From Stenotrophomonas maltophilia (GTDB lineage Bacteria > Pseudomonadota > Gammaproteobacteria > Xanthomonadales > Xanthomonadaceae), in assembly GCF_002799155.1 (NCBI RefSeq), contig NZ_NERD01000002.1:806001-870000 (forward strand): 64,000 nt of DNA, given 5' to 3'. Shown one piece after another: positions 6,601-52,031 of this stretch; position 1 is the first letter of the stretch, and every line of letters starts with the position of its first letter. Both the position numbers and the translations under genes were made by a program. The notes beneath the pieces are model-generated. The model was not told the DNA's origin and did not search any database. It saw nothing but the letters and a program-made list of their open reading frames with translations.

Positions 6601-9361
6601 CATCATCGGCAGCGCGCTGGGCAGCGTGACACTAACGGCGGGAGAAACGCTGCACATCGGCGGATCCGATGTTCTCTCCAAGAACGGAATGACGTTGCTT
6701 GGCAAGGATGTACGCATCGATTCAGCAGAACAGCACTCGGAGTACAACGACAGGAACTACTTCAGGCAGTCAGGTCTGAACGTCGCCGTGGGCGGTGCGA
6801 CCGTTGATACGATTCAAGGTGCACGCGCCGTGTACGCCTTAGCCAAACGCGCAGACGAGGTCGAAGACGATCGCCTCAAGGCGCTCTATGCGTACAAGGC
6901 GGCCCAGGGGGCAATCGCTGTGGCCCAGGCTGCGGGGCAGCAGTCGGGCGATGGAGGTGGCGGCGCCGGATTGAACGTCCGGGTGACCGCAGGAACCCAG
7001 CGATCCCAGTCGGAAACGACGATGGAGCAGACGACCCATCGTGGCAGCACATTGCACAGTGATGGCGATGTGGTGATCGCAGCCACGGGCGGTGATCTGA
7101 CCGTGGTGGGCAGTAGCGTGTCGGGTCGCAACGTAGATCTTGCGGCGGCCAAGGATCTGATGATCAGAAGCAGCGAGGATCGCTACGCCCAGGACAGCAG
7201 AAACCAGTCCCAGGGTGGAGAGATCGGTGTTGCGATCAGTGGAAGCAGCGGCGGCGGTGCAGCGATCGGTGTCTATGTTGGCGCCAATGCCGCGCGTGGC
7301 AAGGCCGACGGGAACGGCACCGTCCACAACGAAAGTATCATCAAGGCCGGGGATCGCCTTACGTTTGCGAGTGGTGGAGACACGACTCTGCAGGGCGCAC
7401 AGCTGGTTGCCAACCAGGTGATTGGCCAAGTGGCGGGCAATCTGGCGGTGCGCACAGAGCAGGACACGGATAGATACAAGAGTCAGCAGCTTGCGGCAAA
7501 AGGTGAAGCCACGATTGGCTATGGCTTCGAGGGTAGTGCCAGCGGCAGCGCCGCCTTGATTGACAGTGACTACCGCAGTGTCCGTGAGCAGACGGGAATC
7601 GCCGCTGGTGATGGGGGCTTCCAGTTGCAGGTTGGGGGCAACACGCATCTGGCCGGAGCCGTCATCGCAAGTACCGCGGATCCGTCGAAGAATCTGCTGT
7701 CGACGGGTAGCTTGACGGTTGAGGATCTCAAGAACCGGGCGGAGTTCCTTTCTGCATCGATCAGTGGCGGTACCAGCGGCGGTGGGAGCCCCTCGGACGG
7801 GTTCAATTTCAACCCGTCGGTGATGCCGGGCATGCCAACGGGTGACCGCAAGAGCACCACCACGCGGAGCGGCGTAGCCGACGGCACGATCGATATTAGA
7901 AACGGAGACAGCAGCACGCTGGCAGACCTGCAGCGCGGCGTAACCAGTCTGGACAACGCCAACGGGTTTGCGCCCATCTTTGACGAGAAGAAGGTTCAGG
8001 AGCGGCAGGAACTCACGCATATCCTGGGAGAGATCGGTTTCAAGGCCGTTGGCAATCTGGCCTCCAAGAAGAGTGCCCAGGCCAAGGTGGACCTGGAAGT
8101 TGCGCGCGCCAATGGTGATGCCGAGGCCGAGGCCGACGCGCTGCGGCGGATCAGCGAGTGGGGTGAAAGCGGGCGCAATAAGGTCTTGCTGCATGGCCTG
8201 ACAGGCGCTGCCGTTGCGGCATTGAGTGGCGGCGATATTAGTGGCGCCGCTGCGGGTGCCACCGGTGCAGCGCTGGCCAAGGAGGCAATGACACGCTTCC
8301 TTACCGGTCAGGGCATGGATCCGCGAAGTGGTGAGTTCAACAGCTTGATCGAACTGGCCAGTGCTGCGTTGGGCGGGGTCGTGGGTGGTACCGATGGTGC
8401 GGGCACTGCGCTGCTGGGAGATCAGTTCAACCGTCAGATGCACTGGGACCAGTACCTGGAAGCTCTGGATGTCTGCAAGGCAAACCCCGCTGTGCGAGGC
8501 TGTTCCACCATTCTTGAGATGTCGGACAACACCAAGGCGGTTGTTATTTCCGACAGTAGTGATGAGGTTGCCTATAAAGTCATAGCGAATCAGAACAAGG
8601 AAACTGGCGAGACTGTCAGCTTCACGCTGACAGAGTCAGACGGAACTCCTCGGCTCATCATGCAGAAGGATGAGTACAACGATTTCGTTGTATCTGGACT
8701 GCCTCCGCCGCTTTGGGGCATGACGCCTGGTTACGCATTGGATCTGGGTTCCTATTTTTCACACGGCTTGAGAGGGAATTTCGGCCAAGCGTTTGGTGAT
8801 ATGTCCAACATCTTCACCAGTGGCGAGTACTGGCAGGATCTTGCGGTTTCGATGACCCTCGGATTGGCCGGGATGCCGCAGGGCAGGATGGTGCCTGCAA
8901 GTTCAGCGACCGCAAGAGTTGGGTTGCGCGAAAGTTTGGCGGGGCAGGCGGGAATTCCAAGGGATATTCTTAAGGCTCCAGCCAATATATGGGGAAAGTC
9001 AATTGATCTGATTCGGCAGTCATTTAGTTTGGATGGTGCGACGTTGGTGCGAATTCCTGCGAAAGCGAATAGCTCTGGCAATGCTCAGGTATATAGGGTT
9101 AGCGGCGGGGCAACGGGCATCAGAGAGATTCAATACAGTCCCTCAACAGCAGGGTCGGCGCAAAAATCGGTGCACGTTGGGGAATATTACAAGTTGACCT
9201 ATTTCGATGGGAGTAAGGTTAAGGTTATTGATCCTTCGGGGTACCGTCCTAAGTTCCGTGGCCCCGGTGATCCGATTTACGACAACAATACGATATACTT
9301 GAATCCGCAGGGTCAGAAAGTTAAATTTAATCATTCAACGAATACTTGGATTCCAGAATGA
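2..9361 (+). CDS. cdiA: CdiA-like contact-dependent inhibition exoprotein (5' end outside window)
   Basis: The frame is open from the first bases, so the start, secretion signal and TPS domain lie upstream; 3119 codons are visible. Reading from the N-terminal side: about 3.5 kb of degenerate FHA-1 beta-helix repeats with recurrent LDN...G motifs; a non-repetitive stretch near 3640-5340, where CdiA proteins usually carry the receptor-binding and YP regions; FHA-2 repeats with AAGKDITL-type motifs to about 7750; a Gly/Ala-rich pretoxin region to 8450; then a variable C-terminus. A DQFNRQMH motif at 8420 resembles the non-VENN junction of some CdiA proteins. The last ~100 residues (from about 9060) are lower in GC and are the likely delivered toxin; they contain VGEYYKL and KVKVIDP, but I cannot name the fold or activity. 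Family knowledge says CdiB exports such proteins; no cdiB is in the window. The immunity gene overlaps the stop. Confidence 0.93.
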   Translation, partial: WTGAGGRLGTLGRLDWTVGNADVRNGTLSAALFQIAADTLDNRGGSLLSLGNQGSMLRAGMLDNSAGGTVAGNGELTVSATTLDNSKGLLQQAGSGALRVHADTLRGSEGRLLSNGDLSLTGGQLDVSGGTTSAQRVQIQADGLRNAGGQIVSLSNSELALEVRGTFDNNGGQVLGNAGLRIDAGRIDNQKGTLQSAGSQGATLTVRDDLDNSAGAISGNGQLQLHVGSLLNQGGKVLAAGSGLLQVQARELLDNRDGGRLAGSGNVLLQAARLDNRSGAIEHAGSGTLQIRADALQGAAGRILSQSTLTLEGGELVLGAGSITQAEHIAINAERLDNAGGNLSATGSDALQLLVAQSVDNSGGTIAGNGALDVQAGELLNRKGTLSAAGTAGSTLQVNGTLDNHEGTIASNANRLTIAAARVDNTAGAIRHAGNQGLDITTTRLDGSKGTLVSAATLTLRADEVDHRDATLGADRFDLEAGTLDNAGGRIVASGEGASRMHATTLGNAGGTLASNGDLTLQAQALDNSAGKIQHAGSGRLQVLAQTLLGASGSVLSNGTLVLEGKTLDLSKATTSARRIDVIADSLITAGGALTATGDEALRLRVQGLLDNRGGSLASNGVLDVSARQLINAQGILQGAGSGRSTLAIGQALDNQSGRILLGGAGTLNAASLDNLGGTVHAGGSELVLGIDSRLDNGSQGLLSSAGAMTLDAASLDNRHGTVVAGKDLLLTTVAGVNNSDGAMQAGELLQLQANGLDNQRGTLLGGQLTVDTRGQRLDNSAGTLGTQKGALTVHSGALDNQGGRVQSAADLLIDTTGQAIDNRGTASSGGLLAGGKLQLEGGALDNRGGTLNAQGDARLLLASADNSAGGTLVSAAGLSLQATTLANGAGRVQAGRNLDLTLSGHLDNAAGAIAAGQLLTLTAASVDNRNTRGGDGTRGLQAGELQFATQWLDNSQGQVVTDGGARLQINGQLQNTGGVISTGGNLDSRADNVANSGGLLRADGSQTLVARVLSEDGQVHAQRDLGLTLQQGMRQRGEWIANGTLSLNLSGDLDNQGVMRGGNLDLNAQNITNAASGEISSQGTTHLNARGQLTNRGLIDGALTHLEAGEIDNLGTGRIYGDRVAISTGVLKNRAEEAGGATRVGTVAARERLDLGVRELQNTGKGLIYSGGDAAIGGSLGADRIASGIAGRIDNISSVIDVTGTLSIDAHVVNNIRENVVITQATTVNAPVRMDRPAWWRNGKNATENIRSTSHYSAHEVYYLNPADILEDTPHITPDGFTVHRAVVRLTAQTSAYFFGRGGLYAALGERSRLNVQDGTVVMYYVGRQDNQVNPDQAAGGADDPFAELTTLHPDSPAFRYVDDRLTYSSAYGTCTTNCVQLWTFKDYDPDRILTSPQFAGGNSTSANEQYRLATRTVTEDVLQPGVGADAVIRSGGAMRIRTDGLRNHYGSIAAGGDLDIVGLSGAAKVENLAATLYRTHQFSNVSHTFGGDVMTWSTPAISEVTGKIGGSIVSGGSLSIDVGDLSNLNQGRNAPNVQNGSAMANLNVQGPKTLPDGPGHGGAQGPGQSTGTGAERALAQAADAAGTQQGGSVGGVSGNSSSSGPRVVAASGGSPDRIAMGAPDTRAPSASLFNVNPNGGHYLVETDPRFTDHKTWLSSDHLLGQMGYSPDTVHKRLGDGYYEQKLVREQIGQLTGRRFLDGYASDEAQYRALLEAGATVASEWGLRPGVALTEAQMAQLTSDIVWLVEQTVTLADGSTTTALVPQVYLRLRPGDLDGNGALLAGANVDIKLGNGLVNTGNIAGRKLVTIDAGNIEHLGGSISGQYVGLSSDKDIRVVGAAVTATDALSVKAAGNVSVASTVETQRGGGTYQYETNRIDRVAGLYVTNPSGDGMLSVVAGGDISLQAAQLRNAGTDGLTQLAAGGNLDVGAIALEERRDATFDERNHQRSSRTTHAASSVQGAGDVVLAAGKDITLAAAQIKAGGGLALQAGGDINSQALVDSESRDFANAGKRSSLQVSQRDETVRGSQLSADGGIALSAGRDANLVAAEVRSEKDAISIGAGRDVNLTSAQEEHTWEQDTQRKKRGLTSTTRTATHDATQDILVVGTVLSGERISIGAGRDITAEGAKIAATGDVVMAAKGNLSIVAAESIHSEQHSSDRKKSGLLGGMNGSFGVTFGSRSAGNSSSLTETVAEGSIIGSALGSVTLTAGETLHIGGSDVLSKNGMTLLGKDVRIDSAEQHSEYNDRNYFRQSGLNVAVGGATVDTIQGARAVYALAKRADEVEDDRLKALYAYKAAQGAIAVAQAAGQQSGDGGGGAGLNVRVTAGTQRSQSETTMEQTTHRGSTLHSDGDVVIAATGGDLTVVGSSVSGRNVDLAAAKDLMIRSSEDRYAQDSRNQSQGGEIGVAISGSSGGGAAIGVYVGANAARGKADGNGTVHNESIIKAGDRLTFASGGDTTLQGAQLVANQVIGQVAGNLAVRTEQDTDRYKSQQLAAKGEATIGYGFEGSASGSAALIDSDYRSVREQTGIAAGDGGFQLQVGGNTHLAGAVIASTADPSKNLLSTGSLTVEDLKNRAEFLSASISGGTSGGGSPSDGFNFNPSVMPGMPTGDRKSTTTRSGVADGTIDIRNGDSSTLADLQRGVTSLDNANGFAPIFDEKKVQERQELTHILGEIGFKAVGNLASKKSAQAKVDLEVARANGDAEAEADALRRISEWGESGRNKVLLHGLTGAAVAALSGGDISGAAAGATGAALAKEAMTRFLTGQGMDPRSGEFNSLIELASAALGGVVGGTDGAGTALLGDQFNRQMHWDQYLEALDVCKANPAVRGCSTILEMSDNTKAVVISDSSDEVAYKVIANQNKETGETVSFTLTESDGTPRLIMQKDEYNDFVVSGLPPPLWGMTPGYALDLGSYFSHGLRGNFGQAFGDMSNIFTSGEYWQDLAVSMTLGLAGMPQGRMVPASSATARVGLRESLAGQAGIPRDILKAPANIWGKSIDLIRQSFSLDGATLVRIPAKANSSGNAQVYRVSGGATGIREIQYSPSTAGSAQKSVHVGEYYKLTYFDGSKVKVIDPSGYRPKFRGPGDPIYDNNTIYLNPQGQKVKFNHSTNTWIPE

Positions 9362-9906
9362 ATATCTCCATTAGTTTCTCCATTGCGTGGGATGCACCTA
9401 TTGTTCCTGGTGTATCGATGGCAGCTATACCTCTGCATGCGTCATACGGTGATCTGGACGCGGTTCTCGCCGCATATCTGATTGACGCGGATGCTCAGCT
9501 GTACAGGTTTGAGGGCGGGCCTGATCTTCGTCTGGAAAGATGTGGTCCTGACGAGCACGGAAATGGCGGGCTCCTGTTCTCCCTGCCTGGCGGTGATCGC
9601 GCTGGTGACATGGCTGCGCTCTCTATTACGATCGAGGGCTGGGTTGTGCGGGCGCTCAAGGTTTACGCATTGGGGATGCCGTGGGATGTTGTTGCACGTA
9701 AGTCCTATCGTGGACTTGCGGCAGGATCAATTGGCCTGGGTAGTCTGGTTTCTGATTTTCTTGTTTTTAGCGAGTTGCATTTCGATGAGGCGGAGGAGTG
9801 GTTCTGTAGCGGAGGTGATTACGGGGTCCTCGAAATTTCCGGTTGGGGTGTGCCGCTCGAGGATGAGCCGGAGCAGGTCGTGACTGCAATCTGCGTTGTG
9901 GCTTGA
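9358..9906 (+). CDS. Probable CDI immunity protein paired with the terminal CdiA toxin
   Basis: 182 residues if translation begins at the ATG that overlaps the cdiA stop (ATGA at 9358-9361); a TTG 12 bases upstream is also in frame but the coupled ATG is preferred. No signal peptide or clear membrane span is seen; it is an acidic, presumably cytosolic protein with conserved-looking Trp residues (EGWVV, EEWFCSG). I do not recognise the family. The immunity role is inferred from position: CdiI genes immediately follow cdiA and are co-translated with it. Base composition is lower in GC than the FHA region, like the toxin end it follows. Confidence 0.8.
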   Translation: MNISISFSIAWDAPIVPGVSMAAIPLHASYGDLDAVLAAYLIDADAQLYRFEGGPDLRLERCGPDEHGNGGLLFSLPGGDRAGDMAALSITIEGWVVRALKVYALGMPWDVVARKSYRGLAAGSIGLGSLVSDFLVFSELHFDEAEEWFCSGGDYGVLEISGWGVPLEDEPEQVVTAICVVA

Positions 9907-9952
9907 GGGTGTTTCTGGTCGTTGCATTGAGTTCGTGAAAAGCCGCGCTTGA

Positions 9953-10263
9953 CAGGCAAGCGCACCTCAATGGCCGGGATGCTGCGGGATGGGCTCTATA
10001 CATGGAAATCGTATCAAGTACATATTGGCACATACGATTCAAAACCCCGCAAAGGCCACGCATTCGGTTTTCGTTGAGGATAGATCCAAGTTGATCTCTC
10101 TTATCGACGAGGCTTGGAGGATGAAGGGCGTGCGGTGCCTGGAGATCCGGGGACGTTCATCGTCCCAATGGGGCGAGTGATTGGCACTGCCGGCGAGAAG
10201 AACATAAGAATTATTGTTAAGCCTGGCGCCAATAAAATAATGTCTGCGTATCCCGTACAGTGA
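9953..10263 (+). pseudogene. Frameshifted orphan CdiA C-terminal toxin fragment
   Basis: Two overlapping frames give one continuous toxin-like protein. Frame one carries GNRIKYILAHTIQNP and HSVFVEDRSKLISLIDEAW. It then runs out of frame, and from about 10138 the second frame continues as PGDPGTFIVPMGRVIGTAGE, then IRIIVKPGAN and SAYPVQ, then TGA at 10261. The switch fits loss of one base near 10130-10138. The ending resembles C-termini of BECR-fold CDI RNase toxins, a tentative assignment. There is no start region or pretoxin domain, so it is a displaced module and now broken. The zinc-ribbon gene eight bases downstream is its likely former immunity partner. Confidence 0.72.
9954..9986 (+). 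repeat. 33-bp repeat, copy A (partner at 16801-16833)
   Basis: The stretch matches 16801-16833 at 29 of 33 positions. In copy B it encodes QAYLNGRDAT in a toxin-tail stub; here the same frame reads QAHLNGRDAA and is cut off. Both look like relics of one toxin 3' end. Confidence 0.7.
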
Positions 10264-10271
10264 GGTGTTTC

Positions 10272-10481
10272 GTGATTTGTCCGCGGTGTGAGCAAGGTGA
10301 GATACTTGAGGCTCGCGTCAAGGAGAGTGTGGCTCAGATTTTTGTCTGCGACGAATGTGATGCTGTATGGTTTTCTTTGAGTGACATCGGCGTTTCTCCG
10401 TTTCGGGATCTTGAGACCTATCTTGAGGAGAATTCAATTGCTCCATCTTGGGAGTCAATTTCCGTGGATAGGCGCCTGTGA
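10272..10481 (+). CDS. Small zinc-ribbon protein, probable orphan immunity protein
   Basis: 69 residues from the GTG at 10272, preferred over the upstream GTG at 10260 because TGAGGTG lies at 10261-10267, a good ribosome site for 10272. Two CxxC pairs, CPRC near the N-terminus and CDEC about 25 residues later, form a probable four-cysteine zinc ribbon, followed by VWF and an acidic tail. It follows the frameshifted toxin tail by eight bases, the usual immunity position. The reading frame stays open past its TGA into another fragment. The immunity function is an inference from position. Confidence 0.6.
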   Translation: MICPRCEQGEILEARVKESVAQIFVCDECDAVWFSLSDIGVSPFRDLETYLEENSIAPSWESISVDRRL

Positions 10482-10610
10482 TGCCTTGATGCACGCGACG
10501 GTTTTTATCTGGTGAAACAGCAGAAGCAGGGGTGGGCACTGAAACAGGGTCGGCCATTTGAGAGTGGCTGGAATGCGGGAAGCTACAATTCACGTATGAG
10601 CAAGAAGTAA
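10482..10610 (+). pseudogene. Immunity-type gene remnant continuing in frame after the zinc-ribbon stop
   Basis: Directly after the TGA at 10479-10481 the same frame stays open for 42 codons to TAA at 10608, reading for example DGFYLVKQQKQGWALKQGR and WNAGSYNSRMSKK. It has no start of its own. It could be the C-terminal scrap of a different gene, or the true end of the zinc-ribbon gene cut by a nonsense change. Confidence 0.45.
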
Positions 10611-10644
10611 GTGCGACCTCAGATGGAGTCCTGTGTGCTTCATC

Positions 10645-10758
10645 ATGTGCTACGCCGCGACCTGCGGATTCCGCTTTGTGCTCTCCTTTCAGTTCGAGAG
10701 CGCCTGTGCGGCAAGGCTCGGGAAGAATCTGGTCTTCCCGGAGCCTGTTGTCCCGTAA
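10645..10758 (+). pseudogene. 3' remnant of an immunity gene homologous to 18217-18609
   Basis: In the frame ending at TAA 10756 the sequence encodes YAATCGFRFVLSFQFES and ARLGKNLVFPEPVVP. The intact gene at 18217 ends YAATCGHRFVLSFQFES and ARLGKDLVFPGPAAP. Only about the last 36 codons remain and no start is present. Confidence 0.8.
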
Positions 10759-10831
10759 TGCCCTACAACAGGGTCGCAGTTCCTAGCCTGATTCCACCTC
10801 GCTTCACGTGGCGATATACCTTATGGATATA
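10650..10831 (+). repeat. ~182-bp direct repeat, left copy
   Basis: It matches 18500-18683 at about four fifths of positions by eye. It covers the immunity-gene 3' end plus the following non-coding DNA, ending in the identical word gcgatataccttatggatat. The orphan cdiA frame starts immediately after this copy and the whole array ends just after the right copy. Confidence 0.8.
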
Positions 10832-10871
10832 AGGCGCAGCCTCCGGCCTGCGTGCGGCCACTACTTCGACC

Positions 10872-13800
10872 GTGGTGACTGCCGGCAGCCAGCGCGCCAA
10901 CAGCGAGCAGAGCCATTCGACCAGTGATGCCCGCGTCAGCCAGTTGGCTGCAGGCGGCGATCTCAGTTTGATTGCCAATGGGGGCTCGATCCTCAGCCAG
11001 GGCACGCAGATGTCGGCCGAGGGCAACGCTGTGCTGCTGGCCACCAAGGACATCGTGTTCGACGTGGCCCACAACACCGAGCGCAGCGACAGCAGCAGCC
11101 GCGGCAAGGGCTGGGGCTTTGCCAACAACACCAGCGGCCTGCCGTTCGGTACCAACAACTCGCAGAGCCAGGGCAGCGGCAGCAGTGACACCATCACCGG
11201 CACGCAGCTGTCGGTCGGCGGCGGCGTGCGCATGGCCACCACCGAGGGCAACATCAGCCTGACCGCAGCCAACATCGCCGCCGAAAAGGACGTCAGCATC
11301 CGTGCGGCCGGTGATCTGCTGGTCCGCAGCGGGCAGGATACGGTCAGCAACGCCAATACGTCGGACAGCAAGGCGATCGGCACGGTACAGATATCGGATA
11401 CCGAGAAGTTCTCCGGCTGGCACCGCGAGCAGCACCAGGACGACAGCGCGCAGGTGTCACAGGTGGCCAGCAGCATCGGCAGTCTGGGCGGCAGCGTGAA
11501 CCTTACCGCCGGTGGCAAGTACACGCAGACGGCCAGCAACGTGGTGGCCGCCAAGGATGTGAACATCACCGCCGCCGAAATCGAGCTGCTGACCGCCGAT
11601 GAGAGCGGTCACTACTCGCAGAGCGACAAGGACCTGAAGATCGGCGTGTTCGCGCGGGTGAGGTCGCCGTTGATCGACCTGATCAACAACGTGGATGCGG
11701 CCCGTCAGTCCGATGATCGCCTGCAGAAGATGCAGGGCATGGCGGCAGGCGCCAATGCCTACCAGGCAGCCAGTGCGATCTCGGCACTGTCCGGCCGTGG
11801 CGGCAGTGGCGAACTGTTCCGTGCTGAAGCAGGCATCGGCTTCAAGACCGCCAACAGCAGTGCCGATGGCAGCAGCATGGTGTCGCGTGGCTCGACCATC
11901 CAGGGTGGTGGAAACGTGAACCTGACCAGCACCCAGGGCAACATCCATGTGGTGCAGGGCAACCTGAGCGCAGGCAACACGCTCAGCCTGGATTCGGCCG
12001 GAGATATCCTGCTGGAAGCTGGCAAGGCGCATGTGGCCGACCGCAGCAAGAGCAGCAATGCCGGCGCCGAAGTCGGCGTAGGCGTCTCTGTAGGCGCGCA
12101 GACCGGCGTGTACGTGTACGCCGAAGCGAGTGTCGGCAGCAGCAAGGCCAATGCCGAGAGCAGCACCTGGCAGAACACCACGCTGACCGGCAAGAACATT
12201 TCGATGAAGGCCGAGGGCGATACCACCCTGCGTGGCGCCACGGCGACCGCTGACCGAATCGACGTCAAGACCGGCGGGACGCTGACCATCGAATCGCTGC
12301 AGGACATCGCCGAGAGCATGTCCAGGAACAGCCAGGTGGGTGGCCGCGTGCAGGTGTCGATCGGCACCGCATGGAATGCTGACGGGTATGCCAGTGCAGG
12401 CAAGGCCAGCGGCAGCTACCAGGGTGTTGGCCAGCAGAGCGGCCTGTTCGCCGGCAATGGCGGGTACCACGTCGATGCAGGTCACGTGAACCTGGTGGGC
12501 GGCGCGATTGCCAGCACCCATGCGGGCAACAGTGAACTGACTGCGGGCTCGCTGACGTTCACCGACCTGCAGAACCACATGGACTACACGGCCAGTTCGG
12601 GCAGCATCAGTGGTGGTGCCGGCGGTGAGATGGATGGCTGGACGCCCAAGCCGGGAACGGCCGCGCCCCGTGGTGGTCCGGGCCTGCCGATGATGGAAAA
12701 GGGCAGCGACAGCAGCTCCACCCTTGCCACTTTGACCGAGGGCAACATCACCATCGGTGGCAAGCAGACGTCGGCGGCTGAGCTGGGCATCAATACCGAC
12801 GCCAGTGGAGCGCATCGTGCGCTGGAGGCATTGCCGGATGCGAGCAAGCTGCTGGCGGACCAGCAGGCGATGGCGGCTGCGGCGGGGACGGTGATGGCCA
12901 CCAGCCAGCAGATTGCCTGGGATATTGGCAGTGCAGATGCGAAGAAGATCACGGATAAATATCGGGAGCCGATGAGTCCCGAAGAGAGACGGGCGTTCGA
13001 TGCGCTTCCTTCGGACGAGCAGTTCAAGCGCCTCGTCGCGTTCGATGCATCCTACCCCGATGCACTGGTGACCCAGCAGAAGTGGGCCCCTGATGGTGTC
13101 TATGGTCGCGCGCTCGGCGCAGTGACCAGCGCGTTGGTCGGTGGTGTTGAAGGGCAGGGGCTGGGTCAGCTGGGTTCCAGCGCGCTGGCGCCGTATGCGG
13201 CTGAACTGATCGGCAAGACGTTTGATCCGAACAAGCAGAGTGCTGTGCCTAGCGAGGCCATGCAGATGCTGTCGCACGCGCTGCTGGGCGCGCTGCTGGC
13301 TGAGGCCAATGGTGGCAAGGCGGGGAGCGGGGCGTTGGCGGCTGGTGGTGGTGAGTTGGCGGCGAAGGTCCTGGGCGACTACTACGCGCGCCAGAATGGA
13401 GGGCAGCTGAGTCCCGAGCAGGAACAGAAGATCAAAGTACTGGGGCAGGCCGTTGGAGCGATGGCTGGTGGAATCGGTGGGGATGGCGCGATGGGGGCGG
13501 CTTTGGGAGCCACCATTGCCAAGAACTCCGTCGAGAACAACTACCTGAATCATGCAGAGCGCATGCAGTTCCTGGACGCCATGCTGAGCTGCACGAAGAG
13601 CGGTGAACGCTGCGGCGAGAAGGAAGAACTCGCTGCGTTGTCCGACGCGAGGAATTCGGCCTTGATTGCCGCGTGCACGGGAGCGGCGAACTCGTCAGCG
13701 TGCCAGGCGGAGAAGTCCAAACTGGGAGACGCGTACTGGACGCTCGCACAGGGTGAATCCGTCTATACCCAATGGATCAAGGACAACGGGCTTGCCCTGG

Positions 13801-14924
13801 CTGAGGCGGCCCTGACGAAGGGGAATGGGGGCAAGATCGCGTCGGATCTGCTCACTCATACTTCTTCGATCGATGCTAAGTACAAGATCACCTGCGCCGC
13901 CGCCGGGCGATGCGATCCGTTCACTGCGGGTGCACTGGTCCTGGATGGACGAATGCAGGAGGCGATGACCAATTTCGCCATCAATCTGTTGTTTGACAAG
14001 GCTGGGGCTGCTGCGGGCGTTACGACCAACGCGGGCGGCATGGTGATGGACGTGGCCAAGATGAACCAGATCTATGCCACTGTGGAGAGTTTCAAGCAAG
14101 CCAAGCATGACTATGATCGTGCGCTGGAAATAGGTGGGTGGGGCCTCGTCAAGGAGAAGGGTATCGGCGCCTGGTCATCCATCACTGGCTACTTCGGAAA
14201 TGGCTGGGATGCGGCGACCTACGAGCTCGGTCTGAACCAGAAGTGGAACCTTGCGGATGTTGCGGGCAACGGTTTCACCAAGGGCGATATGGGACTTGAT
14301 GCAGCATTGGCCGTGGTCAGCCTGGGTGACATCACTGCAATCCGCGCTGCGGCCAAGGCGAGGACGCTGGCGGCGCTGGAGCGTGAGGCCGCATCTGGTG
14401 CTGGAAAACCGAAATCGCCTGTGGATATGGGTGAAAGACGCCCCAAGAACGACTATCTCAATGAAGTAGAGGCGTCAAAAACGCCCGCCGAACTGATCGA
14501 ACAGCAAAGGGGGACGGCAGGCAGAACTGCGCCGGTAGATTATGAACACATTCTAGACGGGAACTTGAATGCGCGTGGTGATGGTGTTGGTGGTCATTAT
14601 CTGCGATCAGATAATGTAAGGGTTGTTGAAGTGACCATGGGGCCGGATCGAAAGGGCATCACGCGGGGGATGGTCGAAATTCGTGATCCCGCAACTGGTA
14701 AGTGGGTGGCCAAGAGGGCCGAGACAACATTTTTCCCGAGAGAGTGGACCCGGCGCAGGGTGGAGATGGAGATCGAAAGCGCATTTGCGAAATCGTCAAC
14801 GAAGTACAGGAATGGTCAGCCATATTGGGAGGGCACTTCTTCCAGTGGTGTTAAGATTGAAGGCTACTACACACGCCCGGATGGCGGAGCAGCCACGGCA
14901 TATCCGGTTTATGGGGCTAAATAG
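10872..14924 (+). CDS. Orphan CdiA 3' portion: FHA-2 repeats, VENN pretoxin, EndoU-type toxin
   Basis: This 1350-codon frame has no signal peptide or TPS domain. Homology to the full exoprotein already begins at 10833, just after a TAA, so the listed GTG is only the first possible start. Its N-terminus (VTAGSQRANSEQ) aligns with the FHA-2 part of the main CdiA near nt 6980. FHA-2 repeats run to about 12600, a pretoxin region follows, VENN lies at 13530-13541, then a cytoplasm-entry-like segment, and from about 14490 a toxin with HILDGN, GVGGHYL, TTFFPREW, KIEGYYT and a terminal TAYPVYG. That His/GGH/FFP/TAYP pattern is the bacterial EndoU nuclease family, so RNA cleavage is the expected activity. 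Without a secretion domain it is probably silent and acts as a donor for recombination into the main gene. The next gene starts two bases after its stop codon. Confidence 0.85.
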   Translation: MVTAGSQRANSEQSHSTSDARVSQLAAGGDLSLIANGGSILSQGTQMSAEGNAVLLATKDIVFDVAHNTERSDSSSRGKGWGFANNTSGLPFGTNNSQSQGSGSSDTITGTQLSVGGGVRMATTEGNISLTAANIAAEKDVSIRAAGDLLVRSGQDTVSNANTSDSKAIGTVQISDTEKFSGWHREQHQDDSAQVSQVASSIGSLGGSVNLTAGGKYTQTASNVVAAKDVNITAAEIELLTADESGHYSQSDKDLKIGVFARVRSPLIDLINNVDAARQSDDRLQKMQGMAAGANAYQAASAISALSGRGGSGELFRAEAGIGFKTANSSADGSSMVSRGSTIQGGGNVNLTSTQGNIHVVQGNLSAGNTLSLDSAGDILLEAGKAHVADRSKSSNAGAEVGVGVSVGAQTGVYVYAEASVGSSKANAESSTWQNTTLTGKNISMKAEGDTTLRGATATADRIDVKTGGTLTIESLQDIAESMSRNSQVGGRVQVSIGTAWNADGYASAGKASGSYQGVGQQSGLFAGNGGYHVDAGHVNLVGGAIASTHAGNSELTAGSLTFTDLQNHMDYTASSGSISGGAGGEMDGWTPKPGTAAPRGGPGLPMMEKGSDSSSTLATLTEGNITIGGKQTSAAELGINTDASGAHRALEALPDASKLLADQQAMAAAAGTVMATSQQIAWDIGSADAKKITDKYREPMSPEERRAFDALPSDEQFKRLVAFDASYPDALVTQQKWAPDGVYGRALGAVTSALVGGVEGQGLGQLGSSALAPYAAELIGKTFDPNKQSAVPSEAMQMLSHALLGALLAEANGGKAGSGALAAGGGELAAKVLGDYYARQNGGQLSPEQEQKIKVLGQAVGAMAGGIGGDGAMGAALGATIAKNSVENNYLNHAERMQFLDAMLSCTKSGERCGEKEELAALSDARNSALIAACTGAANSSACQAEKSKLGDAYWTLAQGESVYTQWIKDNGLALAEAALTKGNGGKIASDLLTHTSSIDAKYKITCAAAGRCDPFTAGALVLDGRMQEAMTNFAINLLFDKAGAAAGVTTNAGGMVMDVAKMNQIYATVESFKQAKHDYDRALEIGGWGLVKEKGIGAWSSITGYFGNGWDAATYELGLNQKWNLADVAGNGFTKGDMGLDAALAVVSLGDITAIRAAAKARTLAALEREAASGAGKPKSPVDMGERRPKNDYLNEVEASKTPAELIEQQRGTAGRTAPVDYEHILDGNLNARGDGVGGHYLRSDNVRVVEVTMGPDRKGITRGMVEIRDPATGKWVAKRAETTFFPREWTRRRVEMEIESAFAKSSTKYRNGQPYWEGTSSSGVKIEGYYTRPDGGAATAYPVYGAK

Positions 14925-14925
14925 A

Positions 14926-15423
14926 ATGGTTATGGGTGCAATTTTGTTTCCTTATTGGAATGGTGATGAGTATGTTGTCTCGTCAGATGAGAGAATTGGT
15001 GATTCAGAGCCTGTCTTGTATGGTCAGGGGGATGGGGTCGGGGAGATTGCTGCATGGTTGGATGGTGACTTCGGTTTTCTTGGCACAGGCAGTGAGCGAC
15101 GCGTTCGGAAATTATTCGAAACTGCGGCACCTGCTGCCAGTGGCGGAGAGTGCGTTCACTATGGGGAGGGGCATGCAGTCTTGCGCGTGGGGGACCTGTT
15201 CCTGATTTTTTCCAGATGGAATAAAAATAATGTTGCATTGTTGAAGCAGGCGCAGATTATCAGTGTCCTGGATATGTACTCTTCCTTCCGAGCAGTCAGC
15301 CCGCGAAAGAAGGATCGACCTCCAGCGGCGTTCGAGTTCGAGTATGAGGCTGAGGGTGAAGAGGCTGTCCGTCGATTCAAGGATGCAGGCGGGGATGTCT
15401 CCAGGCTTGAGGACGACTTCTGA
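14926..15423 (+). CDS. Probable immunity protein for the EndoU-type toxin
   Basis: 165 residues from the ATG at 14926, one base after the orphan cdiA stop; ATG 14932 is an alternative. The frame is open further upstream inside cdiA but that is overlap. It is acidic, with no membrane span or signal, a mixed alpha/beta composition and the end VSRLEDDF. GC is lower than the FHA regions. I cannot assign a named family. Its position directly behind an EndoU toxin makes it the cognate inhibitor by inference. Confidence 0.72.
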   Translation: MVMGAILFPYWNGDEYVVSSDERIGDSEPVLYGQGDGVGEIAAWLDGDFGFLGTGSERRVRKLFETAAPAASGGECVHYGEGHAVLRVGDLFLIFSRWNKNNVALLKQAQIISVLDMYSSFRAVSPRKKDRPPAAFEFEYEAEGEEAVRRFKDAGGDVSRLEDDF

Positions 15424-15462
15424 GCATGACCTTCAGAAGTTCCTGTAGATCGCGGTTCGAGA

Positions 15463-15657
15463 GTGCCTTCTGGCAGAGGGGCCGTTGAGGCAATCACGTC
15501 AGCACATGGGAAGTGGACAAATGCGTGGCATATTGACGTGTTGAAGTGCGTGTATCTGTCCATCTGGTCGGCGTGCCTGATCGCGTGGCCGATTGTCTTC
15601 CTCAACTTCGTATTTGGAATCAGATTCCGCTACTACCGCGACTGTCGAGATAAATAG
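15463..15657 (+). CDS. Small hypothetical membrane protein, possibly an immunity remnant
   Basis: 64 codons from a GTG. The C-terminal half has one hydrophobic stretch (LSIWSACLIAWPIVFLNFVF) followed by a basic tail (RFRYYRDCRDK). No convincing ribosome site is visible and the first ~15 residues look non-coding, so this may be the C-terminal scrap of a membrane immunity protein. It occupies most of the 315 bases between two immunity genes; nothing else is evident there except the toxin stub that follows. Confidence 0.35.
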   Translation: MPSGRGAVEAITSAHGKWTNAWHIDVLKCVYLSIWSACLIAWPIVFLNFVFGIRFRYYRDCRDK

Positions 15658-15742
15658 TGCGCGAGTGAGTTCTTTGAATGCCAATAAGGCTAAGGATCAG
15701 ATTTTGAAATTGAAGTTCCCTGTGAGAAGTGGGGTGCCATGA
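15656..15742 (+). pseudogene. Toxin 3' stub coupled to the 15739 immunity gene
   Basis: An open frame (extending back to 15581 inside the previous ORF) reads VSSLNANKAKDQILKLKF and PVRSGVP, ending at TGA 15740-15742, which overlaps the next ATG as ATGA. The same overlap joins the intact cdiA to its immunity gene, so I read this as the last codons of a lost toxin. Confidence 0.5.
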
Positions 15743-16200
15743 ATTCGCATGAATTGATTGATATTGTCGAGGCGACTGAGTGGTACGTGTATTTGCTCAG
15801 TTTGGATGAGTGCTCGCCGCACGCGCTTTTGGGAGTGGGGGCGGTTAGTAACGATGCGAAATGGCAGTTTGCGGTTGATTTGACACTCAGGTGTCTTGTT
15901 TCAGGGGTGTGGATGTTCTCAGTCCCGAACATTCTTGATGAGCTTGGGTTGGCTAGTGATGAGGAGTTTTGTGCTCGACTGTCGCAGTTCGATCCGTTTG
16001 CGCTTTCCGAAGATGGGGAGAAGTATTGGCTTGATTCCTATATGGTTGGCTCCTCGGTATCCTCCAGCATGGTTTCAAGATGTTTGATTTCTGCAGAAGG
16101 GCCCGTGTTCGCGTCGGGATTTTTTGAGGAGATTGATAGATTGTTTTCTATGTCGGGAGTGGCGTGGCGTGAAGGTTCTCTTATATCGATTTCTTCTTGA
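15739..16200 (+). CDS. Orphan immunity-type protein
   Basis: 153 residues starting MNSHELIDIVEATEW. There is no signal or membrane segment; it is acidic with scattered aromatic residues (WYVYLLSLDE, KYWLDSYMVG). The ATG overlaps the stop of an upstream toxin stub and GGGG sits a few bases upstream. AT-richer than the FHA genes, like its neighbours in the array. The family is not recognised; the role rests on its position among other toxin/immunity relics. Confidence 0.6.
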   Translation: MNSHELIDIVEATEWYVYLLSLDECSPHALLGVGAVSNDAKWQFAVDLTLRCLVSGVWMFSVPNILDELGLASDEEFCARLSQFDPFALSEDGEKYWLDSYMVGSSVSSSMVSRCLISAEGPVFASGFFEEIDRLFSMSGVAWREGSLISISS

Positions 16201-16209
16201 TTGAACTGG

Positions 16210-16338
16210 CGACAGCGGCTCTACCCTCTTGCCACGTTGACCGAGAGCAATGCCGCCATCGGAGGTAAACGGACGTCGGTGGCAGAGCTGGGTATCAATG
16301 CCGATACCATTGGAGTAAATTGCGCGCTGGATGTATAG
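16210..16338 (+). pseudogene. Residual piece of a cdiA pretoxin region
   Basis: After one frame correction near 16230 it reads STL(A)TLTESNAAIGGKRTS then VAELGINADTIG, matching TLATLTEGNITIGGKQTS and AAELGINTDASG at 12720-12815 of the orphan cdiA. It ends at TAG 16336. Only about 40 codons survive. Confidence 0.8.
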
Positions 16339-16363
16339 AATTGTGGGCGTCGAGTTCAAATGA
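16331..16363 (+). pseudogene. Toxin 3' stub coupled to the DUF596-like gene
   Basis: A short frame reading MYRIVGVEFK ends at TGA 16361-16363, overlapping the next ATG as ATGA. Ten codons alone would not be called; it is listed because the same arrangement recurs ahead of four other immunity genes in the array. Confidence 0.4.
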
Positions 16364-16698
16364 TTTCTGACACGATCAGGAATGTTCTTCATTACTCTTA
16401 TGGATGCTCCATGGGGGTTCTGTGGAGAAATATGAATATGGAGTTTGAGGGGGCGTTTGAGCGGCAGACGGAAGAGTTCTTTTCTATGCTTAGGATGCTG
16501 ATGGAGGAAGGGAAGCTGAAACTTGCCTCGGACGGCGTCTTTGCCGATGGCGATATCGATGCGCAATTGGGTGTTCTGCGCCGTGCGTGGCCTAGCACAA
16601 GAGATCAGGAAGATCTCGATGAGGACGGACTTTGGTTTCTTACAGATGCTCCGTTTGGATTGGTTTGGATCGCGCCTGAGGGAGACGTCTGGACCTGA
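16360..16698 (+). CDS. DUF596-like protein, probable orphan immunity protein
   Basis: 112 residues. It begins MISDTIRNVLHYSYGCSMG, has a central EEGKLKLASDGVF block followed by DIDAQLGVLRRAWP, and ends with aromatic-rich DGLWFLTDAPFGLVWI. This order of blocks resembles my recollection of the DUF596 family, small proteins often found beside CDI toxins. The start overlaps the TGA of a toxin stub. There is no export signal. The immunity role is inferred from family and neighbourhood; no toxin body remains next to it. Confidence 0.7.
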   Translation: MISDTIRNVLHYSYGCSMGVLWRNMNMEFEGAFERQTEEFFSMLRMLMEEGKLKLASDGVFADGDIDAQLGVLRRAWPSTRDQEDLDEDGLWFLTDAPFGLVWIAPEGDVWT

Positions 16699-16770
16699 TT
16701 TGAGCGTCTGCTTCATCGGGTGAGGCCTTCTGTTTGACTGGTGTGTTGGATTTCTGTCGAACCGCAGTGA

Positions 16771-47925: not shown

Positions 47926-48675
47926 GTGACCCGTAAACTCGTACTGTTGCGCCATGGCCAGAGCCAGTGGAACCTGGACAACCGCTTCACCGGCTGGGTC
48001 GATGTCGACCTGACCGAGCAGGGGCGCCGGGAAGCGGCCGCCGCCGGTCGGCTGATGCGCGAGGAAGGCCTGCAGTTCGACATCGCCCACACCTCGGTGC
48101 TCAAGCGCGCCATCCACACCCTGCAGGGTGCGCTGGCCGAGCTGGAGCAGGACTGGCTGCCGGTGAACAAGTCCTGGCGCCTCAATGAACGCCATTACGG
48201 TGGCCTGCAGGGCCTGGACAAGGCCGAGACCGCTGCCAAGCATGGCGAGGAGCAGGTCAAGGTGTGGCGCCGTTCGTACGACATCCCGCCGCCGCCGATG
48301 GATCTGGAAGATCCGGGCCACCCGATCCATGACCGTCGCTACGCCGGCCTGGACCGCAACGCGCTGCCGGGTACCGAGTCGCTGGCGACCACGCTGGACC
48401 GCGTGCTGCCGTACTGGCACGACGCCATCGCGCCGCAGCTGAAGGACGGCAAGACCGTGCTGGTCACGGCCCACGGCAACTCGCTGCGCGCGCTGTACAA
48501 GTACCTCAACAACGTCTCGCGCGAGGAAATCCTCGAGCTGAACATTCCGACCGGCATCCCGCTGCTGTTCGAGCTGAACGACGATCTGACCGTGCAGTCG
48601 TTCCGCTACCTGGGTGATCCGGAAGCGGCGCGCAAGGCCGCTGAAGCCGTGGCCAACCAGGGCAAGGCGAAATAA
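47926..48675 (+). CDS. gpmA: 2,3-bisphosphoglycerate-dependent phosphoglycerate mutase
   Basis: 249 residues from a GTG at 47926 with GGAG nine bases ahead. The catalytic motif [10 protein letters not shown] holds the phosphorylated His near residue 9; Arg/Glu residues in [12 protein letters not shown] and [11 protein letters not shown], and the second His in [15 protein letters not shown], are intact. Length matches E. coli GpmA. It interconverts 3- and 2-phosphoglycerate in glycolysis. A strong terminator follows. Confidence 0.96.
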
Positions 48676-48683
48676 AGAAGCAG

Positions 48684-48707
48684 AAGGCCGGCGCAAGCCG
48701 GCCTTTT
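48684..48707 (+). terminator. Intrinsic terminator after gpmA
   Basis: aaggccggc-gcaa-gccggcctt stem of nine pairs followed by TT-rich sequence, nine bases after the gpmA stop. Confidence 0.9.
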
Positions 48708-48709
48708 CT

Positions 48710-49735
48710 TTACTTGGATCGCTGCTCATTGGAATCGGAGTTTGGGCCGGTGGGCTTCTGCTCCTGGAGGTCGAGAAGGAAGGCCGCTGCTGAGATAGGG
48801 GGAGGGGAGGCCAATCCATAGAGCCATTTCGAGGCTTTCAAGTACGTTCCGATCCCGAGAGCATCAATGACCACATCGAGAAAAACTGAGGCCAGCCCTC
48901 GAACCACACGGGCTTGGTCGGCCTGACCCCTGATTGCCCTTGTCGTGGCATCGCGAATTTCGGCGGTCACATCAAGGTAGCTTCTCGCCGCATCCTCAAT
49001 GTTCTTGTTCGCGATGTAACCGCGGAATTGCTTGGTGTAATCACTTGTGGCAATGCGATCAAAAATGACCGGGTCAGGTCCCTGAAATGACACGCAGTTG
49101 TCGACCATTGCATTGATTACAAAGCTTCCGGTCCTGTCCCTGGTGTTTTTGTCCCGGGTTGGATGGAACTGTGTTGGGAATCGTTTGGCAAAAAGAGCCT
49201 GCGAGAAGGAGTTCAATGAGAGCGTGGTAGGGAGTGATTTCTCAAGCGCCTTGTGAACTGCGATATCAGTTGCAAGGGTGGCGGGTGAGTTGGAGTTGGC
49301 AATGCAATGGACGCCAAGAATGTCAAGCGAGCGCGTGTGATTGTCGATTCTTCGGCCTTCAGAATCCCACCAGTATGCTCCGGCATGTTCTGCTTTCGGC
49401 CAATATTCTTCAAAGTTCCGACGGATCACCTCGCGCATGCCGTCGTCCCCGTAGTCCGGGGGGAGTTTCAGTGCGCTCCTTACGTTGTCCTGGACATGAG
49501 TGGGCTGCCTGTCGATTTCCCGGTCCAGATAGCGGATGCTTGGATGGCCGCGCAGGGATTGCGGGCAGAGGCTTTCGCAAAGGAACCAGATTTCGTCATA
49601 GAACACTGTTAGCGCCAACGAATTTTCAAGGATCGGATTCGGAGCGCCTACGCCATCATTCCTTGTCTGGTTCGCTGGATTCTGATAATCGTAGAACGTT
49701 GGGCCGCTGAGGCCGATGAATATCCTGGACGTCAT
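48710..49735 (-). CDS. Hypothetical protein of an unrecognised family (low GC)
   Basis: 341 residues from an ATG preceded by AGGAGGG at ideal spacing, so it is a genuine gene. GC is visibly lower than in both neighbours, and it sits between core genes, so it was probably acquired. N-terminus: SRIFIGLSGPTFYDYQNPA, with LALTVFYDEIWFLCESLCP next; a middle helical region with REVIRRNFEEYWPKAEH; a C-terminal hydrophobic helical region (VVRGLASVFLDVVIDALGIG). No signal peptide or catalytic motif that I recognise. The early hydrophobic strand with GLSGP and FYDEIWFL could suit a nucleotide- or phosphate-handling fold, but that is only a guess. Convergent with gpmA and ending just past its terminator. 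Confidence 0.8.
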   Translation of the reverse strand: MTSRIFIGLSGPTFYDYQNPANQTRNDGVGAPNPILENSLALTVFYDEIWFLCESLCPQSLRGHPSIRYLDREIDRQPTHVQDNVRSALKLPPDYGDDGMREVIRRNFEEYWPKAEHAGAYWWDSEGRRIDNHTRSLDILGVHCIANSNSPATLATDIAVHKALEKSLPTTLSLNSFSQALFAKRFPTQFHPTRDKNTRDRTGSFVINAMVDNCVSFQGPDPVIFDRIATSDYTKQFRGYIANKNIEDAARSYLDVTAEIRDATTRAIRGQADQARVVRGLASVFLDVVIDALGIGTYLKASKWLYGLASPPPISAAAFLLDLQEQKPTGPNSDSNEQRSK

Positions 49736-49937
49736 TATTGCCCTCCTAGCAGGCTAACCGCGTGGCATGTTGGTGGCAGCAGTTGTATTGAATCTGCAGC
49801 TCCTGCAATTTGCACAAGGCGGCCCTCTGCGGTCAATGCGCTGGCTGGCGATGGGGGCCGGGGTTGAGTGTGACCTTTGGCGGTCCCCGTCCGCCTTGTC
49901 TGGGGCTACCCTGTGAAATTACCCGCAGGAGAGCCTC

Positions 49938-52031
49938 ATGAACGTCCGCAACCTGGTCCCGCTGGGCCTGACCATCGCCATCGCTGCCTCGCTGGCGGCC
50001 TGTGGCAAGAATGAAACCGCGCCGGCGGCCAGCGCCGACGCCAAGCCGGCCTTCGACCTGTCGCAGATCAAGACGCCGCTGATCTCGCTCAGCAGCGCCG
50101 ATCTGGATCCGGCCATTTCGGCCTGTACCGACCTCAATGGCTTCGTCAACAGCAAGTGGCTGAAGGCCAACCCGGTGCCGGGCGACCAGACCACCTGGGG
50201 CAGCTTCGAGATCCTGCGCGAGCGCTCGCTGGAAGTGCAGCACGCGCTGGTGCAGCAGGCTGCGGCCAGCCAGGCCAAGGCCGGCTCGGTGGAAGCCAAG
50301 ATCGGTGACATCTGGAAGACCGGCAACGATGAAGCCAAGATCGAAGCCGCCGGCCTCGCTCCGCTGCAGCCGCAGCTGGACAAGATCACTGCGCTGAACG
50401 ATACCGCCGCCATCACCCAGTACCTGCGCGACAGCCAGGCCGAGGGCAAGGGCGTGCTCTTCTCGCTGTTCGCCAATGCCGATTACAAGGATTCGGCCAA
50501 CGTCATCGCCTACGTCGGCCAGGGCGGTCTCGGCCTGCCGGAGAAGGGCTACTACTTTGACGACGCCCAGGCCAAGATCCGCGACGCCTACGTGGCCTAC
50601 ATCGCACAGGTGCTGACCCTGTCCGGCGTGGACGCGGCGCAGGCCGCCGAGCAGGCCAAGGCCGTGATGGCCTTCGAAACCCGCCTGGCCAAGGCCTCGA
50701 TGTCGCGCATCGAGATGCGTGACCCGGCCAAGCGCTACAACCCGCTCAGCGCGGCCGACGCCGACAAGCTGACCCCGAACTTCAGCTGGACCGCGCTGTT
50801 CGACACCCTGAAGGTGCCGGCCGCGCAGAAGTTCTCGCTGGCACAGCCGGGCTTCTTCGGTGAAATGGACAAGATGCTGGCTGACGTGCCGGCTGCCACG
50901 TGGCAGGCCTACCTGCGCTTCCACACCATCGACGACGCCTCGCCGTACCTGAGCAGCCAGTTCGAGAAGGCCAACTTCGATTTCTATGGCACCACCCTGC
51001 GTGGCCAGAAGGAAATGCAGCCGCGCTGGAAGCGCGTGCTGGAGTCGGTCAACGGTGGCATGGGTGAGGCCCTGGGCCAGCTGTACGTCGACGCCGTGTT
51101 CCCGGCCGAATCCAAGGTGGCCATGCAGCACCTGGTGGAGAACCTCTCGGTGGCGCTGAAGGCGCGCCTGGAGCAGCTGCCGTGGATGGGCGAAGAAACC
51201 AAGAAGAAGGCGCTGGAAAAGTGGGCCAGCTTCACCCCGAAGATCGGTTACCCGGACAAGTGGCGTGACTGGGCAGGCCTGCAGACCAACGGCGACAGCT
51301 ACCTGGGCAACATGCAGGCGGCGCGTGCGTTCAACTACCGCTACATGCTGGACAAGATCGGCAAGCCGGTGGACAAGACCGAGTGGGGCATGACCCCGCA
51401 GACCGTCAACGCGTACTACAACGCCACCAAGAACGAGATCGTGTTCCCGGCGGCAATCCTGCAGGCGCCGTTCTTCGACGCCAAAGCCGATCCGGCGCTG
51501 AACTACGGCGGCATCGGTGCGGTCATCGGCCACGAGATGATGCACGGCTACGACGACTCGGGCAGCCAGTTCGCCGCCAACGGCAACTTCGACAACTGGT
51601 GGACCGACGCCGACCGCAAGGCTTTCACCGAGCGTACCGACCAGCTGGTCGCGCAGTTCGACGGCTATGAATCGGTGCCGGGCGTGTTCGTGAAGGGCAA
51701 GCTGACCCTGGGCGAGAACATCGGCGACCTGGGTGGCCTGACCGTGGCCTACGATGCGCTGCAGATGGCGCTGAAGGAAGATCCGAAGGCGAATGTCGAA
51801 GTCGATGGCCACAGCCAGGACCAGCGCTTCTTCATGAACTGGGCCACCGTGTGGCGCCGCAACTTCACCGATGGTGAGCTGCGCGTCCGCCTGAACACCG
51901 ACCCACATGCGCCGGCCAACTTCCGTGCCAACGGCGCGCCGTCGAACATGCCGTCCTATGCCGCTGCGTTCCAGTGCAAGGCCGGCGACGCGATGGTGCG
52001 CGCCGACGACAAGCGCGTGGTGATCTGGTAA
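49938..52031 (+). CDS. M13-family zinc metallopeptidase lipoprotein (PepO/neprilysin-like)
   Basis: 697 residues. Lipobox LAAC at residues ~18-21 (with CGKN after it), the first M13 domain (CTDLNGFVNSKWLKANPVPG), and the catalytic domain with zinc motif VIGHEMMHGYDDSG (HExxH), the third-ligand motif GENIGDLGGL and the substrate motif NAYYNATKNEIVFPA. The C-terminus FRANGAPSNMPSYAAAFQC..MVRADDKRVVIW is typical, including the near-terminal W. It degrades short peptides, likely in the periplasm. Monocistronic, with a good terminator. Confidence 0.94.
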   Translation: MNVRNLVPLGLTIAIAASLAACGKNETAPAASADAKPAFDLSQIKTPLISLSSADLDPAISACTDLNGFVNSKWLKANPVPGDQTTWGSFEILRERSLEVQHALVQQAAASQAKAGSVEAKIGDIWKTGNDEAKIEAAGLAPLQPQLDKITALNDTAAITQYLRDSQAEGKGVLFSLFANADYKDSANVIAYVGQGGLGLPEKGYYFDDAQAKIRDAYVAYIAQVLTLSGVDAAQAAEQAKAVMAFETRLAKASMSRIEMRDPAKRYNPLSAADADKLTPNFSWTALFDTLKVPAAQKFSLAQPGFFGEMDKMLADVPAATWQAYLRFHTIDDASPYLSSQFEKANFDFYGTTLRGQKEMQPRWKRVLESVNGGMGEALGQLYVDAVFPAESKVAMQHLVENLSVALKARLEQLPWMGEETKKKALEKWASFTPKIGYPDKWRDWAGLQTNGDSYLGNMQAARAFNYRYMLDKIGKPVDKTEWGMTPQTVNAYYNATKNEIVFPAAILQAPFFDAKADPALNYGGIGAVIGHEMMHGYDDSGSQFAANGNFDNWWTDADRKAFTERTDQLVAQFDGYESVPGVFVKGKLTLGENIGDLGGLTVAYDALQMALKEDPKANVEVDGHSQDQRFFMNWATVWRRNFTDGELRVRLNTDPHAPANFRANGAPSNMPSYAAAFQCKAGDAMVRADDKRVVIW

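Follow-up and report, generated by a model that had tools for sequence, protein, structure and literature searches.

The stretch of DNA analysed here, called the window below, comprises 64,000 nucleotides of Stenotrophomonas maltophilia (assembly GCF_002799155.1, contig NZ_NERD01000002.1, positions 806,001 to 870,000 of the forward strand). Between gpmA and a gene for an M13 peptidase, it carries a gene for a 341-aa protein, P0001, of an undescribed family. Here, we describe this gene as a rare single-gene insert in a variable slot between two core genes, report its distant relatives in bacteria and archaea, and weigh its possible role in antiviral defence. The features of the locus are as follows, in coordinates of the window:

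47926..48675, plus strand: gpmA, core gene and left border of the slot (PF00300 histidine-phosphatase family, consistent with gpmA)
48682..48707, no strand assigned: gpmA terminator (terminator scan)
48710..49735, minus strand: gene of P0001, 341 aa, undescribed family (gene calling, library scans, relatives)
48714..49868, no strand assigned: insert of ~1155 bp, not common to the fetched sister genomes (DNA comparison)
49562..49714, minus strand: N-terminal family signature, codons 8-58 (invariant in nine aligned rows)
49736..49868, minus strand: non-coding leader of the insert, 133 bp, may hold the promoter (sequence, DNA comparison)
49741..49747, minus strand: Shine-Dalgarno-like AGGAGGG, 5 nt upstream of the ATG (sequence)
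49869..49937, plus strand: leader of the M13 peptidase gene with the conserved GTGACCTTTGG, right border of the slot (present in 67 of 69 intervals)
49938..52031, plus strand: M13 peptidase, core gene and right border (PF05649/PF01431)

The gene and its insert

The domain families on either side, PF00300 on the left and PF05649/PF01431 on the right, bear out the position between gpmA and the peptidase gene that an earlier note, made from the letters alone, had given. That note had also called the gene well initiated and foreign in composition, and both statements hold. The open reading frame (ORF) is intact over 341 codons, begins with an ATG at 5 nt from the AGGAGGG motif, and exceeds every frame seen in 2000 mononucleotide shuffles of the 1262-bp gpmA-M13 interval (longest 266 aa, median 103 aa). 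Its guanine-cytosine (GC) content is 54.1%, with 62.0% at third codon positions (GC3), as opposed to 65.1-70.7% (GC3 81.6-90.1%) in the six neighbouring genes. A reference set of 21 genes has a mean GC of 67.9% (standard deviation 1.6) and a GC3 of 85.9%, where the spread is too narrow because the set was picked with GC3 > 0.8.

Similarity of the left flank to the sister regions ends at or before 48715 (median 48706), that of the right flank starts at or after 49864 (median 49870), and none of the 79 regions with a hit (80 in the database) has any DNA match into 48725-49860. The edges of the insert are accurate to a few bases; the stop codon at 48710-48712 lies inside the shared left flank and overlaps the T-run of the gpmA terminator, which is listed for the opposite strand too and may also serve the P0001 gene. 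No sigma-70 promoter consensus was found in the leader of the insert. As to the vehicle, a transposon was rejected, as the repeat search listed no repeats at the insert edges, and there is no tRNA in the window. An integron cassette was rejected as well: no attC box pair occurs on either strand within 48601-50000, by a test that asks for the boxes RYYYAAC and GTTRRRY 40-150 bp apart and can miss sites.

The gpmA-M13 slot across the genus

The earlier note took the place to be typical for single-gene cargo and proposed to compare the spacing between gpmA and the peptidase gene in other strains. gpmA was matched over 743-750 of its 750 bases in 88 of 91 genus genomes, the window's own included, and the stretch downstream of it was fetched for 80 of the 87 other genomes. 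Of these 80 stretches, 69 contain an M13 gene in the same orientation. The other 11 hold no M13 gene inside the fetched stretch; their gpmA identity is 88-92%, and one of them stops at a contig end. The comparison finds the spacing empty in some strains and differently filled in others, in support of a cargo site: 39 of the 69 sister intervals measure 119-319 bp, too short for such a gene, while 25 hold at least one of eight other recognised cargo families. Five intervals are longer without recognised cargo, and two of these (L051, L068) carry other genes.

The cargo labels derive from sequence motifs; Pfam backs DUF4262, AAA_15, HNH_2 and Amidase_3, and the C39 label is our own assumption. 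A family of 165-184 aa stands alone at 11 sites, DUF4262 alone at four and the 'NTLTLATS' family alone at three, one of which (L042) is shorter and perhaps broken. A C39-like gene occupies two sites, AAA/OLD-type, HNH and amidase genes one each, and mixed sets two. The recognised cargo is encoded entirely on the minus strand at 23 of the 25 filled sites. The ATPase-TOPRIM cargo (genome G036, L010) matches 141 PADLOC models, best ATPase-Toprim_I-B (E 4e-45), a model which we take to be that of a retron effector. The HNH cargo gene (genome G012, L061) also matches PADLOC models.

Some further observations concern individual cargo. The 165-184 aa family is the commonest in the slot, being found at 12 of 69 sites and accompanied by DUF4262 at one of these; its scanned member (L009:426-923, minus strand) has no Pfam or PADLOC match. 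In L010, the ATPase-TOPRIM gene (399-1856, minus strand) is the only long ORF of an interval with 45% GC. About a dozen empty intervals of 208-214 bp (L017, L020-L022, L028-L031, L035, L037, L039 and L047) hold a GTAG...CTAC inverted repeat, presumably akin to the REP/SMAG elements of the genus. This repeat lies where others carry cargo and may mark or seed the slot.

With its conserved flanks, empty sites and unrelated cargo, the gpmA-M13 slot is a hotspot. The P0001 gene itself is mobile, because it occurs in a single one of the 91 genus genomes, the window's own, has an atypical GC content, and forms a clean insert at a site which sister genomes leave empty or fill otherwise. Universal presence in the genus with normal composition, named in the earlier note as the opposite case, is contradicted by these data.

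Relatives of P0001

A sample of the phylum (397 genomes) and, with a nine-row profile, the order (299 genomes) each gave the window's own genome as the only one with P0001. Nine relatives with ~18-28% identity come from other orders, classes and phyla, namely from Gammaproteobacteria, Bacteroidota and haloarchaea. One of them, WP_158059364.1 (L002) on a 532-kb plasmid of Halorussus halophilus, is 26% identical over 85% of the query (E 6e-9). When 84,980 species genomes were scanned, P0001 as the sole query found no relative, and a two-row alignment found six loci. They belong to a Pseudomonadales metagenome-assembled genome (MAG; L003), Pleomorphovibrio (L004), Halostagnicola (L005, disrupted by a transposase gene), a Saprospiraceae MAG (L006), Gracilimonas (L007) and a Chromatiaceae MAG (L008, a cut-short copy). 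Among 292 haloarchaeal genomes, a profile search had matches in four, and two of these were new relatives (L100, L101); the match in genome G762 was counted as the known Halorussus one because of identical coordinates. Profile searches of 395, 299, 125 and 77 further genomes gave no new relative. The pattern-based scans have low recall and the counts of relatives are lower bounds; the family is rare.

In Halostagnicola, an N-terminal fragment (L005:7977-8501) and a C-terminal fragment (L102:7444-7917) lie ~124 kb apart on one contig. They share a short middle stretch, and the N-terminal one runs into a transposase-like gene on the opposite strand.

A phage origin was rejected, with no match in 50,697 phage records and none confirmed in pattern scans of IMG/VR, and so was a plasmid origin, with 1 match in 72,556 plasmid records, the same record each time.

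The relatives also qualify the earlier view of P0001 as an orphan of unknown family. No library offers a usable match: Pfam gives one sub-threshold row (13.6 bits, cut-off 27), and PADLOC, NCBIfam and PHROGs give none. The word orphan, however, does not fit a protein with nine distant relatives outside the genus.

Could P0001 be an ancient part of the genus core that was lost nearly everywhere? Its position as a single gene at a constant site flanked by core genes would fit. This is nevertheless very improbable, given its presence in 1 of 91 genomes and its foreign composition, the unrelated genes in the same slot elsewhere, the lack of any DNA remnant in 79 regions, and relatives as distant as those above.

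Conserved residues and tree

Nine rows were aligned, without L008 and with an L005 row that stops before the C-terminal part. The invariant residues are M1, G8, S10, P12, P32, P34, E37, Y46-D47-E48, W50-F51, C57-P58, D131 and D157, and the N-terminal signature reads 'G-S-P...PNP-LE...YDE-WF...CP'. That these residues are conserved from bacteria to archaea speaks for a functional protein. Towards the C-terminus lies a semi-conserved hydrophobic stretch with a 19-residue mean hydropathy of 0.8-1.8 in the eight rows reaching there, which is too weak for claiming a membrane segment. In an eight-row tree, the three archaeal proteins cluster (support 90/91) and P0001 stands beside the Pseudomonadales protein (97/95); its branch is long (2.32 changes per column) and its placement unsure.

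That long branch and the sole copy in the genus are what one might expect of a chance open frame or a functionless passenger. Such an origin can hardly be upheld, though, for a frame longer than all shuffled ones and with residues invariant across two domains of life.

Gene neighbourhoods of the relatives

Four of the nine relatives (L003, L006, L007, L008) have TIR, Mrr, NACHT or DUF3644 genes next to them or in their vicinity. In L007, a co-directional Mrr_cat gene begins 20 bp downstream; the genome has 2 Mrr_cat matches in total. L003 is part of a gene array that runs on one strand, counting only the genes taken as real, with a CAP12-type TIR gene (PDC-S35), TIR_2 and DUF3644 (PDC-S19). 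DUF3644 is the nearest of them, located ~1 kb upstream and separated by two small ORFs, and the sole TIR_2 match of the genome sits in this array. By eye, the array has attC-like palindromic spacers, while strict box pairs were not found; it is probably a cassette array that includes TIR-type genes. Two such spacers of 48 bp (L003:869-916 and 2395-2442), 90% identical, lie between single genes. L008 has a TIR gene (PDC-S66) directly upstream; two genes upstream of L006 lies one for a NACHT protein that includes an LmuA-like part.

Functional interpretation

These neighbours suggest a defence role. We favour the view that P0001 is a candidate for single-gene antiviral defence, rare and spread by horizontal transfer, with a probability of roughly 0.55. 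The earlier note had left the choice between a defence and a stress gene. The first option gains from the defence neighbours of four of nine relatives and from the two slot cargo genes with PADLOC matches, whereas nothing points to stress.

Several results weigh against this interpretation. P0001 matches 0 PADLOC families at E up to 10, the relatives L003, L004, L100 and L101 match 0 at E up to 0.01, and the commonest slot cargo (the 165-184 aa family, DUF4262 and 'NTLTLATS') is without PADLOC match. None of the four adjacent genes scanned in the window is a defence neighbour. L002, L004 and L101 have no clear defence neighbour in annotation or ORF lists, which were read and not all scanned; L005 stands among transposase genes, and L100 is surrounded by genes, DUF7845 among them, that suggest an integrated element of archaea. 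The adjacency in L008 is weak because its genome (G488) has 32 TIR_2 matches, and this copy is cut short. Structure prediction did not help either: two AlphaFold models, built from six-row alignments, reach a mean predicted local distance difference test score of 52.5 and 54.1, with a predicted template modelling score of 0.55 and 0.47, respectively, and Foldseek found no match to PDB or BFVD at E 0.001.

Other attempts to name a function or a fold were rejected. Seven Pfam rows came up for the nine aligned members, none of them shared by two members (best E 0.019), and PDB searches by sequence and by profile gave chance-level rows (best E 1.4 and 0.067). With VIA-align, one model is closest to a cyclodipeptide synthase (Z 4.0), the other (L007) to a heavy meromyosin chain (Z 4.0) and VapC20 (Z 3.9); nucleotidyltransferase-like and glycosyltransferase-like rows of the first model (Z 2.0-3.1) are at noise level. 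As the two models disagree, no fold is claimed. Of the checks proposed in the earlier note, remote homology thus yielded the nine relatives, but fold prediction was too poor to be of use.

An accessory gene of another kind, be it metabolic, stress or surface-related, could also have entered the slot by chance exchange and be unrelated to phage. We regard this as possible, if somewhat doubtful. The window without defence neighbour is in agreement with it, as are the ordinary neighbours of several relatives and the fact that most other slot cargo is not defence-like (DUF4262, C39-like, the 165-184 aa family). It leaves unexplained the Mrr gene of L007 and the TIR/DUF3644 array of L003, which look unlikely by chance as judged from the genome counts (2 Mrr_cat, 1 TIR_2); this background covers genome-wide matches for Mrr_cat and TIR_2 only.

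Alternatively, P0001 might be a toxin-like or inhibitory gene of a mobile element, e.g., a solitary toxin whose N-terminal part is PIN-like, that is kept for its own spread. The conserved acidic residues would suit such a protein, as would the weak match of the L007 model to VapC20 (root-mean-square deviation 3.8 over 99 residues) and the occurrence of one relative in a cassette-like array and of another on a megaplasmid. We judge it unlikely, since the insert has no second gene as a possible antitoxin, the structural matches do not rise above noise and are not the same for the two models, and no Pfam PIN family matches.

A horizontally acquired and self-contained one-gene cargo, the P0001 gene brings its leader and its ribosome-binding site with it, stops at the gpmA terminator and sits in an exchangeable slot flanked by two core genes. 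For the favoured antiviral role, the following mechanism can be proposed. The conserved N-terminal part (E37, Y46, D47, E48, D131, D157) may form the enzymatic or sensing part, and the C-terminal part, helical in a low-confidence prediction and with its hydrophobic stretch, might hold an oligomer together or touch the membrane. Sensed infection would then switch on a growth-stopping activity.

Comparison with known systems

P0001 resembles the PDC-S candidates of PADLOC, which we take to be single-gene candidates of phage defence, in being an accessory one-gene locus, and PDC-S19, S35 and S66 are neighbours of the relatives L003 and L008. It differs from them in having no sequence match to any PADLOC model. 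WP_158059364.1 belongs to the same family as P0001, but is archaeal, located on a plasmid and without annotated function. The cargo of the sister species shares the slot and mostly the minus strand with P0001, while its protein families are distinct by motif and library search.

A literature search by family accession, locus tag and two motif strings found no paper, and none was found on the gpmA-M13 site as far as titles and abstract openings tell. For S. maltophilia, 27 defence islands are defined in PMC11680222. These resemble the gpmA-M13 slot in holding variable genes between fixed core genes; gpmA and phosphoglycerate do not occur in the main text of that paper.

Elsewhere in the window, positions 4142-16716 show a lower GC content (down to 52%) and very long ORFs (1739 and 1350 aa) followed by small downstream genes. 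From its sequence, we presume this to be a locus of two-partner-secretion adhesin or contact-dependent inhibition (CdiA-like) type.

Significance

Going beyond the single gene, we tentatively suggest that P0001 may stand for a family of single-gene antiviral proteins which spans two domains of life, has escaped description and uses an effector or sensor fold that differs from the catalogued ones. Such a family would travel as a one-gene insert and, in one relative, in a cassette-like array. Two relatives lie immediately beside the gene of a possible partner, an Mrr nuclease or a TIR protein, and the gpmA-M13 slot might be reused for finding further, as yet unknown defence genes of this genus. 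Filled sites of this slot hold one or few genes between fixed borders, so that it is easily mined. Rare accessory genes that keep residues across bacteria and archaea and lie near varied defence genes are good leads to antiviral mechanisms.
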